Made by a program: the position numbers and the translations under genes
Part shown: positions 3,835 through 29,756 of the stretch, piece by piece
Layout: every line of letters starts with the position of its first letter
Position numbering within the stretch: the stretch's first letter is position 1
The notes under the pieces: model-generated
Told to the model about the DNA's origin: nothing
The model's database searches: none
What the model saw: the letters and a program-made list of their open reading frames with translations, nothing else
Assembly (NCBI GenBank): GCA_021827845.1
Contig: JAKAUB010000252.1
Coordinates: forward strand, 1 to 34,604
From: Acidobacteriota bacterium
GTDB taxonomy: Bacteria; Acidobacteriota; Terriglobia; Terriglobales; Acidobacteriaceae
Direction: 5' to 3'
Length of the DNA stretch: 34,604 nt

Positions 3835-4377
3835 ATGATGGCGGCCATGAAACGTCTCGCCCTATTCGCAATGCTGTTCGCCGCTCTCTTTGTCCCCTGT
3901 CTTGCTGCGCCGGCCCAGGCCGCGCCCGCCAACAGTGGAACCGCCAAGATTCTTCTGCCCGATGCCACCGCCAAACTAATGCCGCCCAGTGTCTTTTTCA
4001 GCGGCCAGGTCGCGCCGGTGCAAATGCGCAACACCTACGGGCTGCAGTTTGGGGACAACATGGTGGTGTTGGCCGGACTGGTGGACAGCAGCGGCTACTC
4101 CAGCGGAATGCAGGTGAAGTATCAGGGCTATCTGTTGAGTGAGGTTCCGCTGACAATCGAAGGCCAGACGCTGCCCGCGGGTGCGTACGGCTTCGGCTTC
4201 GTCGCGCCGCATTCGTTTCTTGTCATGGATCTCGGTGGCCATGATGTACTGCGCGTGGATTTTCACATGGATCCGAACCTGGCTCGGCCGCGGCCGCTGA
4301 TGATCGCCCCAAGCGGACAGCCGCGCAGCTATCGCCTGGTCGCCAACCGCCGTTATGTGACGATTCGGCGCAAGTAG
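3835..4377 (+). CDS. Secreted hypothetical protein
   Basis: Signal peptide MKRLALFAMLFAALFVPCLAAPAQA; stop TAG at 4375-4377 lies inside the 19-bp repeat. Confidence 0.75.
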   Translation: MMAAMKRLALFAMLFAALFVPCLAAPAQAAPANSGTAKILLPDATAKLMPPSVFFSGQVAPVQMRNTYGLQFGDNMVVLAGLVDSSGYSSGMQVKYQGYLLSEVPLTIEGQTLPAGAYGFGFVAPHSFLVMDLGGHDVLRVDFHMDPNLARPRPLMIAPSGQPRSYRLVANRRYVTIRRK

Positions 4378-4392
4378 CCGCCGCTACTTCGG
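4374..4392. repeat. 19-bp direct repeat, left copy (GTAGCCGCCGCTACTTCGG)
   Basis: Exact match to 5088-5106; together with flanking AA it forms the hairpin AAGTAGC-CGCC-GCTACTT. Confidence 0.9.
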
Positions 4393-4476
4393 GCAATTAC
4401 ATACTTGACACAATTCTCGCGCGCTTTCGGACCTTCGTGGTATTAGCGTTTCACAGTATTCCACCTCGAATCAACT

Positions 4477-5073
4477 ATGGCAAAACCACGAAGTAAAAGA
4501 AAGCGGCAAACGCAACAAGGAAAACAAAACTTCTCCCGGCCGCAGCAATCCAAAGCGCAAAATCTTGCAAATAATCCCTCCACAACTCGGAAAATGCTAT
4601 GGAAAAAACTGGTTAAAGGGGCGTTGTCCCTGTTTGGACTCATCGGCGTAGCGGTGGGTTTATTGGTTCTATACCCGTGGCTTGCGATAAATGAAGACTA
4701 CGCATCCGACTTCTCCAATCCATACAATGCGTCATTTTCCGTGACAAACGAAGGCTATGTACCACTGCTAGACCTGTCCGCAACATGCACGGCTGGATTT
4801 GAGATGCTAAACCCAGGATCGCCACGCGGACTGCCGCTTAAGACCACCACTACGTATGAGCATTTTGCTCCACAATTAAAGTATAAGCACCGCGCATCCA
4901 TTCCGTGCGACCACAATGTACTTGCGAATGGCCATCTAATTAAGCCCGGAGCGACTCTCACAATCCAAATAAGTTATCGTCTTCCAGTACTTAAAATCCG
5001 CCGCCATCAGGAGTTCCACTTCTGGACTCAATTGTGGTGGGACAACACCTATCACTGGAAATATGACAACTGA
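4477..5073 (+). CDS. Orphan single-pass membrane protein, lower-GC
   Basis: 198 aa: basic N-terminus (MAKPRSKRKRQTQQGKQ), one TM (LSLFGLIGVAVGLLVLYPWLAI), soluble C-terminal domain. AT-richer than its neighbours; TTGACA at 4405-4410 upstream but no clear -10. Confidence 0.7.
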   Translation: MAKPRSKRKRQTQQGKQNFSRPQQSKAQNLANNPSTTRKMLWKKLVKGALSLFGLIGVAVGLLVLYPWLAINEDYASDFSNPYNASFSVTNEGYVPLLDLSATCTAGFEMLNPGSPRGLPLKTTTTYEHFAPQLKYKHRASIPCDHNVLANGHLIKPGATLTIQISYRLPVLKIRRHQEFHFWTQLWWDNTYHWKYDN

Positions 5074-5087
5074 TGTGCGTCAAATAT

Positions 5088-5106
5088 GTAGCCGCCGCTA
5101 CTTCGG
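5088..5106. repeat. 19-bp direct repeat, right copy (GTAGCCGCCGCTACTTCGG)
   Basis: Exact match to 4374-4392; contains the stop codon of the convergent CRTAC1-like gene (cta at 5098-5100). Confidence 0.9.
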
Positions 5107-6873
5107 CGCACCGGACCCCTCGACCACGGTAAGAAAACGGTCGGCGCTGGACTGCGCCGCAGGATAGCGGAACGTCTCGCTCAATCCGCTGGGCCAGCGC
5201 ACGGCGACGCTGTCAATGTGGTTGCAGTTTCCCAGCCCGAAATGCAGCCGCATGTCATTGTTCGATAGATAGCTGGAACCGCTGCGCACTTCCTGCATCC
5301 ACCGCCGGCCGCAGGCAGCAACGGTGACCTGCGCGCCAATGCCATCCCGGTTGGACTTTGTACCGCGCGTGATGACGCCGAGCCAGTGATTTTTGTTCGC
5401 GGCCTGATTCACTAGCAGCATGGGGTGGCTGCTCATGTTGTTCACGACGGCGGAGACGCGCCCATCGTTCCAGAAGTCTGCAACCGCCAGCCCGCGGCTG
5501 GATGCGGGCGTGGTACAGCCGGGGCCACACTGCTTGCTGAAATCTTTGAAGGTGCCGTTGCCCGCATTCCAGTAGAACAAGCGCGGCTCTTCGTAGGTCG
5601 ATCCGAGATGCGCCGTATCCACTTCCGGGTAGACGTGACCATTCACGATCAGAATGTCCGGCCGTCCGTCATTGTCAAAGTCAGCGAACATTGTGCCCCA
5701 GCCCAGATACTGCGTATTGAAGCCGAGACCTGCGGCGTCGATCGATGGCGTGAAGGTGCCATCGCCATTGTTCTTGTAAAGGGAACTCGTATCGTCGGAG
5801 AAGTTTGTCTTGAAGATGTCTTCCAGACCATCGCCGGTGTAGTCGCCAATGGTTGAGCCCATCCCTGCCTGTTCGCGGCCGTCCTCGTTGTACGCCACGC
5901 CGGCGTCTGCGGCCACATCTGTAAAGGTCCCGTCCTTGTTATTGCGATAGAGAATGCTGGGGGTGCTGTCGCACGCAATGTAGATGTCCGGCCAGCCGTC
6001 ATTGTTGTAGTCCAGCGTGGATATGCTGAAGCAATAGTGGCCATCCGTTTTGAGAATGCCGGAGCTCTGGCTCACGTCCGCAAATTTTCCATTCCCCAGG
6101 TTGTGATACAGAATGTTCGGCGAATGCGGCAGCCCGCGTGGCCCGCACATAACCGGCGTGCCTTTCCAGATACACATCACACCCTCGCCCGGCTTCGGAA
6201 TGGTGGCCAGGTCAAACTTCACATAATTCGCAACGATCAGGTCCAGCTTGCCGTCGCGGTCATAGTCGACGAAGGCGCAGCCTGTGCCCCAATCCTTCCC
6301 ATTGCCCGCCACGCCGCTTTGCTGGGAAACATCCTTAAATGTGCCGTTGCGCTCGTTGTGATACAGGCGGTTCTTGCCGTAATAGGTCACGTACAAATCG
6401 TCGTATCCATCGTTGTCGTAATCGCCTACGCACACGCCCTGGCCCCAGCCAGAGCCTGTGAGCCCCGCCTGCTTCGTCACATCGGTAAACGTGCCGTCGT
6501 GATTGTTGTGGTAGAGATGCGACGTGGGAGCGCCCGGTGTATCGGTGTCTTCGCCCAGCTTCTGACCGTTCACGACAAAGATGTCGGGCCAGCCATCGCG
6601 ATCGTAATCGAATACCGCAACCCCGCTGCCGGTCGTCTCAATAATGTATTTTTTTGAGTCGACGCCGCCGTTCACGTTCAGCATCTTCAGGCCGGCTTCC
6701 GGCGCTACATCCACAAACCATGCTGGCCCGGGATGCGCATCGTTTGGCGGATAGGGCTGACGGGTACGATGACTGGAAGGCGCAGCGGTGGCTGTACGCT
6801 GTGCGATGGCGCACGCCATGCTGCAGAAGACCAGCAGAAGCAGCGTACCGCAAAGTTTCCCGCCCTCCCGCAT
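5098..6873 (-). CDS. CRTAC1-family secreted protein with FG-GAP/VCBS repeats and ASPIC/UnbV C-terminal domain
   Basis: Repeated VFDYDRDGWPDIFVVNG / VGDYDNDGYDDLYVTYYG / DFDNDGRPDILIVNG motifs; C-terminal NHWLGVITRGTKSNRDGIGAQVTV...LHFGLGNCNHIDSVAVRWPSG. Confidence 0.92.
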   Translation of the reverse strand: MREGGKLCGTLLLLVFCSMACAIAQRTATAAPSSHRTRQPYPPNDAHPGPAWFVDVAPEAGLKMLNVNGGVDSKKYIIETTGSGVAVFDYDRDGWPDIFVVNGQKLGEDTDTPGAPTSHLYHNNHDGTFTDVTKQAGLTGSGWGQGVCVGDYDNDGYDDLYVTYYGKNRLYHNERNGTFKDVSQQSGVAGNGKDWGTGCAFVDYDRDGKLDLIVANYVKFDLATIPKPGEGVMCIWKGTPVMCGPRGLPHSPNILYHNLGNGKFADVSQSSGILKTDGHYCFSISTLDYNNDGWPDIYIACDSTPSILYRNNKDGTFTDVAADAGVAYNEDGREQAGMGSTIGDYTGDGLEDIFKTNFSDDTSSLYKNNGDGTFTPSIDAAGLGFNTQYLGWGTMFADFDNDGRPDILIVNGHVYPEVDTAHLGSTYEEPRLFYWNAGNGTFKDFSKQCGPGCTTPASSRGLAVADFWNDGRVSAVVNNMSSHPMLLVNQAANKNHWLGVITRGTKSNRDGIGAQVTVAACGRRWMQEVRSGSSYLSNNDMRLHFGLGNCNHIDSVAVRWPSGLSETFRYPAAQSSADRFLTVVEGSGAPK

Positions 6874-26518: not shown

Positions 26519-26647
26519 CGCACAACAGTAGAATGCTAAGACGAAAGAAGGGGCGGCTGGGAAGTCCTGCTATCCTATAGCCGCTCGGTCGCAGTCGAGG
26601 TGGATTTCGCTGAGACGTGAACTATTCGACCTACGATCTGCTCACTC

Positions 26648-27838
26648 ATGGCCTCAATTAGCTCAGCTCGCAAAACCATAATATTTCTGGCGGTATACGT
26701 CGCGATTGTTCTGCCGTTGTGCTTCCTTGGTTATGGAAGCGACAATGACACATACGGCGTACTTGAGGCAGGAAAATCGACATGGCGCGATGGTCACCTC
26801 GCCACATCGAGAAATCCAGGCTACTGGCTGTATGAAGGAATTGTTTACGCAATAGCACATCTGGGCGGCTATGTGGCAACCAACATTGCCTCGATGTGTG
26901 CTGGGGCCTTTATCCTTTGGCGCTTTCTTTCCCTGTGCCGTAAGCTCCGGATTCCCAATGAATACATCCTGGGTTTTTGCGTACTGTTCGTTCCCACATT
27001 TTTGATCGCAGCCAGCTCGACGATCGACTATTTGTGGTCGCTTGCCTTTCTCGTCGCGACGGCAGAATTACTTCTCGATGACCGGCTTGCATTGGCCAGT
27101 CTTACTGGCGCAATAGCCGTAGGGTTTCGCGCCAGTAATTCGATCATCGTCGCCGGGACGTATGCCGGGCTGCTGATATACGGAATTTACGTCCGCTGGG
27201 GGGGGCGGCGGATCGCGGCGATCCTTGGCTCAGGCTTTGCCGCAGCCGCTCTCGGCGCATTATTTTTCCTACCCTCATGGATAGTGGCGCATGGCACCTT
27301 AGGTTTCTTAACGCCTGGAATTGGGCCAGCAGCGATGTGGACGTTCAAAATGCACGCTGGACGATTCATCTACAAAACAATCTATCTTTTCGGACCGATA
27401 GCGACCATAATCATGCTGTTTCTCCTAGTGCGCAATCGGTTGCACTTGAAGTTTCCTAAGAATTCGGATGTGAGGCGAAGAGGATTCGCGATAGCTCTAG
27501 GTGCATTTTTGGCGAACATTGCACTATTCGCGAAATTTCCGGTCGAAGTCAGCTATCTGCTTCCTGGCATGTTCTTCTTTATGCTGCTGGCAGGACTTAC
27601 ATTTTTGAATGATTCACGCACCTCTGCGCTCTTAGTGCTCGGCGGAATTCTGACGTTCAATCTATTTTCCATTTCGTTTGCTAAACCGAACGTTCCGCTT
27701 CACGCGACCAATGCTACGTTAACGGTGGCACCACAAGCTGGAATTTTGATTGAGGACATACGCATCCGACTCAAGGCAAAATCGTGTGAAACCGTTCCAT
27801 GCTGGGCACAAAAGGTCCAACAGCAGCCGGCTTTGTGA
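26648..27838 (+). CDS. Multi-pass membrane protein, GT-C glycosyltransferase-like (gene X), lower-GC
   Basis: About 8-10 hydrophobic segments; early GSDNDTYGVLEAGKSTWRDGHLATSRNPGYWLYE resembles the first loop of GT-C-type enzymes; AT-richer than its neighbours. Confidence 0.65.
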   Translation: MASISSARKTIIFLAVYVAIVLPLCFLGYGSDNDTYGVLEAGKSTWRDGHLATSRNPGYWLYEGIVYAIAHLGGYVATNIASMCAGAFILWRFLSLCRKLRIPNEYILGFCVLFVPTFLIAASSTIDYLWSLAFLVATAELLLDDRLALASLTGAIAVGFRASNSIIVAGTYAGLLIYGIYVRWGGRRIAAILGSGFAAAALGALFFLPSWIVAHGTLGFLTPGIGPAAMWTFKMHAGRFIYKTIYLFGPIATIIMLFLLVRNRLHLKFPKNSDVRRRGFAIALGAFLANIALFAKFPVEVSYLLPGMFFFMLLAGLTFLNDSRTSALLVLGGILTFNLFSISFAKPNVPLHATNATLTVAPQAGILIEDIRIRLKAKSCETVPCWAQKVQQQPAL

Positions 27839-27855
27839 AGGCTGCGGCGTGGTAT

Positions 27856-28075
27856 GTTGCCTAAACCCCGACGCCGTACTCGACGGGGCCACCGTTGTCG
27901 CCCGCGTGAGAATAAAAATCGTACGGGGTGCTGTGCTTGAAGCGGTAGCGGTCACGCAGGTTGCGGCCCACAAAAAAGCCCAGCGCCAGCGCGCCAGTGG
28001 CCACCGATCCCCAGCCCAGGATTTGAACCCAGGGAATGTCAGAGAGCTCGGGAAGCTTTTTCTGGATGGCTCGCA
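27856..28075. repeat. Direct repeat copy A (about 220 bp), 5'-truncated copy of the small membrane-protein gene
   Basis: Aligns to 29537-29756 with constant offset 1681; nine substitutions counted by eye; similarity ends at gctcgca. Confidence 0.93.
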
Positions 28076-28082
28076 AGTACAC
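27861..28082 (-). CDS. Partial duplicate of small membrane protein (73 aa from a GTG start)
   Basis: MYLRAIQKKLPELSDIPWVQILGWGSVATGALALGFFVGRNLRDRYRFKHSTPYDFYSHAGDNGGPVEYGVGV; last 71 aa identical to 29542-29814. May be a pseudogene or a functional short form. Confidence 0.55.
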   Translation of the reverse strand: MYLRAIQKKLPELSDIPWVQILGWGSVATGALALGFFVGRNLRDRYRFKHSTPYDFYSHAGDNGGPVEYGVGV

Positions 28083-28173
28083 CTGAGCTCTTCAAACGCG
28101 ACCATAGTGAGGAGTCCGAGATCCTGAAGGAACAGCGCTGCGTCGCTAACTATACGGACAACCCTGCCGGCGT

Positions 28174-28204
28174 TTGGCATTAATGCGTTGCAAAACGGTA
28201 TAAT
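28174..28204 (+). promoter_or_regulatory. Candidate sigma70-type promoter for the acyltransferase gene
   Basis: TTGGCA (28174-28179), 19-bp spacer, perfect TATAAT (28199-28204), within the segment between the two direct repeats. Confidence 0.4.
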
Positions 28205-28242
28205 CGGGCACACAATAAAGCCCGCGCCCCCCGTCGCGCCAT

Positions 28243-29463
28243 TTGTTGCCCTCGCCGTACTCTATGGTCGACTTCAGGCAGTCCTTTAAAAAAGCGCATG
28301 AAAAAGGGATCACCCCGGCGGTCTCAGCCCATTTGGACGCAATCCGCGGGCTAGCCGCGATCGCTGTTCTACTTATGCACGCTCGTCACCTACTGCTGAG
28401 GGATTGGGCGGATCTTCACCATCACAACCTCGGTCTCGAGTTCGTTTACGGTATCACTGAGTTTGGCCATCAAGCCGTAATCGTTTTTTTTATATTGAGC
28501 GGATTTTTCATCGGTCCGGGAGTCTTGCGCGACATCCATACTGGACGCTGGTCTTTCACTGCATATTTTGTCAAGAGGTTCATCCGTCTTGAGATTGTTC
28601 TGCTACCAGCGTTGTTGCTTTGCTTATTTTGGGATTTAAGCGGGTCTCACATTTTCGGTTTGAAATCGATTTATGGCGGGCATGCAGATTTTTATCCGGT
28701 GGCGTACAACATACAGGCATGCATTTCGGCGCCGATCTTTTTTGGCAATTTGGCATTCCTGCAAATGATCAAGGTACCTCCGCTAGGAAGTGACAGCCCA
28801 CTATGGAGCTTAGCGAACGAGTTCTGGTACTACCTCCTGTTTCCATGCACCGCGCTGGCATTACTATCCAGAAAAAAACTTGCCGTGCGTTCCACGTACG
28901 GGGGTGCCGGAGTTCTAATCGTATGGCTTGTGCGGAAATCAATCTTGATTTATTTTCCTATCTGGCTAATTGGTGTCTTATCCTATTACCTCCCGAAAAC
29001 GAAACACCCTAAGAGCATCAAGCGCGCTTTTTTAATAGCTTCCTCCGTTCTATTTTGTCTTGATTTGCTTTCCACCAAGCAATACTGGAGCAACTCCATC
29101 GCCTCCGATTATGTTCTCTCCGGCTGTTTTGCGTTATTCCTTTATTCCCTATTGAATCGAACGACGACGATTGGCGAGCGTTATAGTCGGCTGTCTCACG
29201 GTCTAGCATCCTCCTCGTATACCCTCTACGTCGTGCACCTTCCCTTGCTAGTTTTTCTCGAGGTCTGGATCGGAAAGCGCTGGGTGCCCACGCCATTGCA
29301 TTTGGTATTGACTCTGGGAATCGTGTATACAGACTGGCTCTACGCCCGCGGGATATATCGCCTTTTTGAGGCGCGAACGCCCACAGTCCGGCAGTGGACC
29401 GAAAAAAAGCTCAAAGGTCTATATGCCAAAATGGGTCGAAAGGAGAGGCAGGGGGTACTGTAA
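28243..29463 (+). CDS. Acyltransferase family 3 (OafA/YrhL-like) membrane protein (gene Y), lower-GC; true start may be 28264
   Basis: AHLDAIRGLAAIAVLLMHARHL...FGHQAVIVFFILSGFFIGPGVL...SLANEFWYYLLFP...SSYTLYVVHLPLLVFLE. Confidence 0.9.
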   Translation: MLPSPYSMVDFRQSFKKAHEKGITPAVSAHLDAIRGLAAIAVLLMHARHLLLRDWADLHHHNLGLEFVYGITEFGHQAVIVFFILSGFFIGPGVLRDIHTGRWSFTAYFVKRFIRLEIVLLPALLLCLFWDLSGSHIFGLKSIYGGHADFYPVAYNIQACISAPIFFGNLAFLQMIKVPPLGSDSPLWSLANEFWYYLLFPCTALALLSRKKLAVRSTYGGAGVLIVWLVRKSILIYFPIWLIGVLSYYLPKTKHPKSIKRAFLIASSVLFCLDLLSTKQYWSNSIASDYVLSGCFALFLYSLLNRTTTIGERYSRLSHGLASSSYTLYVVHLPLLVFLEVWIGKRWVPTPLHLVLTLGIVYTDWLYARGIYRLFEARTPTVRQWTEKKLKGLYAKMGRKERQGVL

Positions 29464-29536
29464 CGCCCAGTCCGTCCAAGCTTGAATCGCACCCGCGGAC
29501 CTGTGGCGAAGTCTACGTGGCAATGGGCAGAAGACG

Positions 29537-29756
29537 GTTGCCTAGACCCCGACGCCGTACTCGACGGGACCACCGTTGTCCCCCGCGTGAGAATAAAAAT
29601 CGTACGGGGTGCTGTGCTTGAAGCGGTAGCGGTCGCGCAGATTGCGGCCCACAAAAAATCCCAGCGCCAGCGCGCCGGTGGCCACCGATCCCCAGCCCAG
29701 GATTTGAACCCAGGGGATGTCGGAGAGCTCGGGAAGCTTTTTCTGGATGGCTCGCA
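29537..29756. repeat. Direct repeat copy B (about 220 bp), 3' part of the full-length small membrane-protein gene
   Basis: See copy A at 27856-28075. Confidence 0.93.

Follow-up and report, generated by a model that had tools for sequence, protein, structure and literature searches.

Genes and repeats at the locus

The window, meaning the whole stretch of 34,604 bp that was analysed, contains two convergent host genes between which a single further gene lies, enclosed by two exact copies of the 19-mer GTAGCCGCCGCTACTTCGG spaced 714 bp apart (Table 1). Both copies had been described in an earlier note on this DNA, and so had the position of the host stop codons within them, which our analysis bears out: the TAG at 4375-4377 that ends the plus-strand gene 3835-4377 falls in the left copy, and the stop of the minus-strand gene 5098-6873, at 5098-5100, falls in the right one. 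Both stop codons are intact after the insertion, hence neither host gene was broken by it. The target itself is a hairpin at the two convergent stops (RNA fold -12.8 kcal/mol, z -1.9). The chance of finding an exact 19-mer repeat within 34.6 kb, previously put at about 1 in 500, comes to 1 in 460 when recomputed as 34604^2/2/4^19. No third copy occurs in the 2.76-Mb MAG to which the window belongs (G000), the sole other match having 3 mismatches.

Table 1. Coordinates of the features at the insertion locus (positions in the window).
Feature	Position	Strand	Basis or remark
Upstream host gene, 180 aa, function unknown, signal-like N-terminus	3835..4377	+	ORF; sister copy 94% identical
19-mer, left copy	4374..4392	+	target flank (9 bp) and target duplication (9 bp), then the element's first G
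Target duplication, left copy, GCTACTTCG, 9 bp	4383..4391	+	adjoins left element end
Very probable mobile element, 705-bp passenger-only IS1595-type cassette	4392..5096	+	both ends top matrix matches; missing from sister site
Left terminal inverted repeat, GGCAATTACATACTTGACACAATT	4392..4415	+	matrix score 25.0
Passenger gene, 198 aa	4477..5073	+	ORF; homologs in relatives; hydropathy
Right terminal inverted repeat, GGCGGCTACATATTTGACGCACAT (outside-in), degenerate tip	5073..5096	-	matrix score 13.2, rank 2
19-mer, right copy	5088..5106	+	element tip GTAGCCGCC (9 bp) and target duplication (9 bp), then one flanking base
Target duplication, right copy, GCTACTTCG, 9 bp	5097..5105	+	adjoins right element end
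Downstream convergent host gene, FG-GAP/ASPIC-UnbV (CRTAC1-like) protein	5098..6873	-	ORF + domain match

The passenger is the sole gene between the repeats and, as had been proposed, it is AT-richer and foreign to its surroundings at the convergent junction. Its GC content is 47.6% (GC3 49.5%), and no lower value occurs among 330 ORFs of 200 aa or more that were sampled from the same genome and average 61.9% (sd 3.5). No transposase domain was found inside the element, where the 198-aa passenger is the only ORF; the locus has thus the passenger unrelated to transposition, unaccompanied by a transposase, that is expected of a mobile insertion cassette, and an autonomous IS1595-family insertion sequence was rejected because the element holds no DDE_Tnp_IS1595 gene. 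Elsewhere in the genome, a search for the element found no further copy.

An empty site in the sister species

In the sister species (G001, same genus, 94% nucleotide identity, the sole congener compared) a contig of 3,971 bp carries both neighbours at 91-94% nucleotide identity and lacks the insert. The empty site (L024:636-660) reads caaGTAGCCGCTACTTCGGtgcgcc. The prediction that a relative would have a single copy of the repeat is thereby borne out in kind, not in length, since the copy measures 16 bp instead of 19, with one GCC fewer; an IS1595-derived mobile insertion cassette should leave such a site in a relative, and the one found is 3 bp shorter. The insertion event is real, a foreign gene having been placed between two host genes in the chromosome of this soil bacterium, and the empty site rules out a chance repeat as the origin of the 19-mer. 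None of the 60 relatives that were searched with its single sequence, the congener included, has the passenger gene, and from the comparison with this one sister we infer an insertion in the lineage of the window rather than a loss in the sister. An occurrence of TACATAYTTGACRCA already in an unfilled site would speak against a cassette.

The 69 kb aligned between the two genomes revealed no like insertion elsewhere; they display tandem arrays and intergenic replacements. One region of the window, 26519-29491, spans about 3.0 kb here against 1.2 kb in the sister and is the site of a direct repeat of 220 bp (27856-28075 and 29537-29756, 96% identity, spacing 1681 bp), and an intergenic array whose unit resembles GTCATCCTGAGCGCAGCGAAGGATCTCTGCATT is larger in G000 (L093:8020-8490, G000:C2) than in the sister (L083:2900-3080).

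IS1595-type ends inside the repeats

The insert had been pictured without transposon features, a view that does not survive inspection of its ends. Its inner boundaries hold an inverted repeat, TACATACTTGACACA (4398-4412, plus strand) and TACATATTTGACGCA (5090-5076, minus strand), and among the loci examined a similar inverted pair was found at L223, a locus from another genus of the same family. The element at that locus measures about 2.7 kb, has AGCAAGAACATACTTGACACACAT and GGCAACAACTTACTTGACGCACAT as its boundaries and encodes an IS1595 transposase (DDE_Tnp_IS1595/Zn_ribbon_IS1595, 1.9e-42; NCBIfam IS1595, 3.5e-55), a second TM protein and a homolog of the passenger (9.7e-14), the latter being the best match of the window protein among the element-borne proteins compared. 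In further relatives (G044 and G009) the end pattern of the insert falls at the starts of IS1595 transposase genes. A transposase of the L223 type is present in 28 of the 61 genomes searched and was not found in G000, a MAG that is 82% complete, or in G001.

Relatives of the L223 transposase gathered from viral contigs gave 28 elements with resolved ends, 1.5-4.0 kb long and with passenger ORFs in most, whose terminal inverted repeat reads about GGYAATAATATACTTGAC and whose target duplication is 8/8 bp in all 28, a figure favoured by the method, as these elements (window and L223 left out) were picked by consensus similarity plus duplication. Duplications of 8 bp usually flank members of the IS1595 family (PMC8101967). 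From 19 of the viral-contig elements, again leaving out the window and L223, we built a 24-bp matrix and scanned 567 kb of G000 on both strands (about 1.1 million positions). Position 4392 (plus) came first at 25.0 and position 5096 (minus) second at 13.2, the third reaching only 9.0; known ends score about 20-35 with the same matrix. When the outermost 7 matrix positions were dropped, the same two positions still held ranks 1 and 2. Since a matrix built independently of the locus ranks precisely this pair at the top, the element extends from 4392 to 5096, and it has an IS1595-type inverted repeat on either side, as an IS1595-derived cassette should. Three neighbouring bases of the right tip do not match the consensus. 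Reading the TTGACA near the left end as a promoter box only was discarded, the matrix test having placed it within the terminal repeat.

It follows that a 19-bp duplication does not bracket the insert, as the earlier note had it: the repeats contain the element ends, and the target duplication spans 9 bp. The 19-mer is composed of this duplication, GCTACTTCG, of the 9 bp of the right tip, which are identical to the left flank, and of 1 bp; the duplication directly abuts the ends within the 19-bp repeat and is one base longer than the 8 bp of the 28 related elements. Identity between flank and tip amounts to 0-3 bp in 38 other elements and to 9 bp in the window, the lone outlier. Judged from the left end of the element, the expected right tip is GTAATTGCC, and three base changes (ATT to GCC) turn it into the left flank GTAGCCGCC. 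The right tip was probably made identical to the left flank by a micro-conversion between the two junctions that share the 9-bp duplication, and the same event might have donated the extra GCC that is missing from the sister flank (AAGTAGCC followed by GCTACTTCG). A pre-existing difference in GCC repeats plus chance is a possible alternative, if a less simple one.

A passenger family shared by two types of element

The passenger protein begins with a basic N-tail that has a net charge of +13, followed by a single TM helix at roughly residues 48-68 and a C-terminal domain. It has no match in Pfam, PHROGs, NCBIfam or PADLOC and no significant one in PDB, and in a single-sequence structure prediction (mean pLDDT 47) the TM helix is the only reliable part. 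As a plausible guess, the protein may be anchored in the inner membrane and may have an extracytoplasmic domain of beta type. The gene had been called an orphan, a label that does not fit, since distant homologs are spread over many genera of its class. With a lenient threshold, 29 of 399 genomes of the class, its own genome counted, have a diverged homolog (about 20-30% identity), and within the same family a 13-sequence profile recovers homologs in 25 of 398 genomes, from 15 of 79 genera. Its members share the basic N-tail, the single TM helix, the motif DxSNPFxAxFxITNxGxxxxxxVxxxC and a C-terminal VSYxP...FxF...G...W. These single-TM proteins, the passenger among them, form a family with a patchy distribution in Acidobacteriota. 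A viral or plasmid origin was set aside, neither the passenger nor its homologs, used as queries, having matches in phages, plasmids or viral contigs.

A simple search for flanking repeats at the first distant homologs returned nothing; the wider set displayed repeats and inverted ends. Several homologs are enclosed by a pair of GGTAGTGTCCTAATTTG inverted repeats and flanked by target duplications of 8 bp (L222, L226, L227, L232), and another one by the same ends and a duplication of 7/8 bp (L238), the homologs within such IS1-like ends forming transposase-less units of 0.6-0.7 kb. This 15-mer end occurs in 84 of the 398 genomes of the family, in many cases as two inverted copies with a spacing of 0.1-3.3 kb, and its reversed control pattern has no match in any of the genomes listed. 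Complete units of 34-1032 bp encode other single-TM proteins or nothing, and most of them are flanked by 8-bp duplications. Two loci with this end encode an IS1-like transposase, as told by a weak Pfam IS1 match, an NCBIfam IS1 match below cut-off and plasmid homologs annotated as IS1. The IS1-like repeat was ruled out as the vehicle of the window, the 15-mer being absent from G000 and also from G001. Of the 33 homolog loci, with the window counted, 8 show a strong IS1-like end on one side or both, and an IS1595-type end is present at 3 (window, L223, L235), from which we conclude that one passenger family rides two transposon families.

Some features of these elements deserve mention on their own. 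Two head-to-head IS1-like ends stand alone at L260:1499-1532, L268:1499-1536 and L273:1480-1517 (34-38 bp), flanked by an identical 8 bp, TTCAGTCC and AGAAAAGG, and by GGTATGAA with one extra base at L273; they are either transposed units of minimal size or what an internal deletion left behind. A unit of 157 bp at L270:1499-1655 has two perfect IS1-like ends and unmatched flanking 8 bp, and is perhaps a recombinant of two copies. At L224, L227, L229 and L232 the stop codon of the passenger comes from the right inverted repeat (CAAATTAGGACAC or a near variant, ...AAT TAG). Cargo that looks single-TM was also seen between IS1-like ends at L255, L257, L261, L271, L276, L277, L280 and L272, and between IS1595 ends at L286, L223:2134-2922 and L284. 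Several of these cargo proteins have an 'I.N.G.SPA..V' domain, and the cargo of L286 (IS1595) and that of L280 (IS1-like) are weakly similar.

Alternative origins of the repeat

IS1202-type insertion sequences make long target duplications, about 17-29 bp, and have their own inverted ends; this type was rejected here, the ends being of the IS1595 type and the 19 bp splitting into 9 + 9 + 1. The broader proposal that the 19-mer is a true target duplication, left by some long-stagger element or transposase not known so far, would set the insert at 4393-5087, take the likeness to IS1595 as partial and suppose that the right tip was never there. The exactness of the repeat over 19 bp speaks for it, as does the chance of about 4e-6 for a 9-bp coincidence of flank and tip, but the left end opens exactly with GGCAA of the consensus, a single base into the repeat, the right tip retains GGC at the correct distance and ranks second in the genome sample, and both the 28 relatives (28/28) and IS1595 elements in general (PMC8101967) have duplications of 8 bp; we consider this origin unlikely. 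It is very improbable that the gene is ancestral here and was lost from the sister through recombination between the repeats, since its absence from 60 of 60 relatives searched, the sole congener compared among them, and its foreign composition weigh more than the fact that direct repeats make a precise loss possible.

Hardly any credence is left for a loose DNA fragment captured at a staggered break by end joining, the duplication arising by chance and no transposon taking part: inverted ends of the IS1595 type at both boundaries would stay unaccounted for, even if a transposase was neither present in the insert nor found in the MAG and transposed genes with flanking repeats have been described in Arabidopsis (PMC2869330). 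Site-specific integration by a tyrosine recombinase or an integron, with the 19-mer as attachment core, seems just as far-fetched. The hairpin target AAGTAGC-CGCC-GCTACTT at a gene end does resemble known attachment sites, but there is no integrase and no further 19-mer copy in the genome, and the ends are of the DDE-transposon type; an integron gene cassette was discarded in the same way, inspection of the boundary sequences having disclosed no attC cores (GTTRRRY/RYYYAAC).

A probable transposase-less cassette and its significance

With the observed ends, repeats, empty site, foreign composition and homologs travelling with a transposase, the segment 4392-5096 is very probably a transposase-less, passenger-only element of the IS1595 family, that is, a mobile insertion cassette, inserted at the convergent junction. 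Against this reading stand the duplication of 9 bp versus 8 in 28 relatives, the altered tip, the lack of a second copy and the failure to find an L223-type transposase in G000 or G001. IS copies that carry passenger genes (transporter ISs) are known (Siguier 2009 on the IS1595 family, cited in PMC3129680), and a passenger-only derivative that a cognate transposase can activate is termed a mobile insertion cassette (PMC3129680). The element at 4392-5096 shares with IS1595 transposons of the transporter-IS kind the ends of the L223/L284/L287 subgroup (GGCAANNACATACTTGACRCACA), the adjoining short duplication and a passenger unrelated to transposition, and differs from them in having no transposase, a duplication of 9 bp and an altered right tip. 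Cassettes of type MIC231, derived from IS231, likewise have a passenger ORF between IS-family ends, no transposase and presumably a movement in trans, whereas the ends of the present element are of IS1595 and not of IS231 type and its mobilisation in trans is presumed. The IS1-like elements of Acidobacteriota (terminal repeat GGTAGTGTCCTAATTTG, 8-bp duplication) carry the same passenger family and differ from the present element in end sequence and transposase.

Probably an IS1595 transposase encoded by another element recognised the inverted ends of about 24 bp in trans and brought the unit of 705 bp, which holds one gene for a membrane protein, out of a donor of lower GC content. The unit would then have inserted into the short hairpin between the two convergent genes, duplicating the 9 bp GCTACTTCG, after which a small gene conversion between the junctions would have made the right tip match the left flank GTAGCCGCC. 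A resident helper transposase in G000, given a MAG that is 82% complete, is possible.

The locus offers a caution, namely that an exact flanking repeat can exceed the true target duplication in length. It also points to a route, as cargo of non-autonomous insertion sequences, by which patchy, AT-rich 'orphan' membrane genes reach the chromosomes of Acidobacteriota, within cassettes that escape annotation owing to the shortness and divergence of their ends. Whether short single-TM membrane proteins are a recurrent and selected cargo of Acidobacteriota, packed in transposase-less one-gene cassettes and exchanged between IS1595-type and IS1-like families, so that the gene itself is the stable mobile unit, is in our judgement evenly balanced. 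If the cargo is truly common to two transposon families, it would provide a tractable case of passengers kept for their own function, and the end matrices could be used to test many unexplained singletons.
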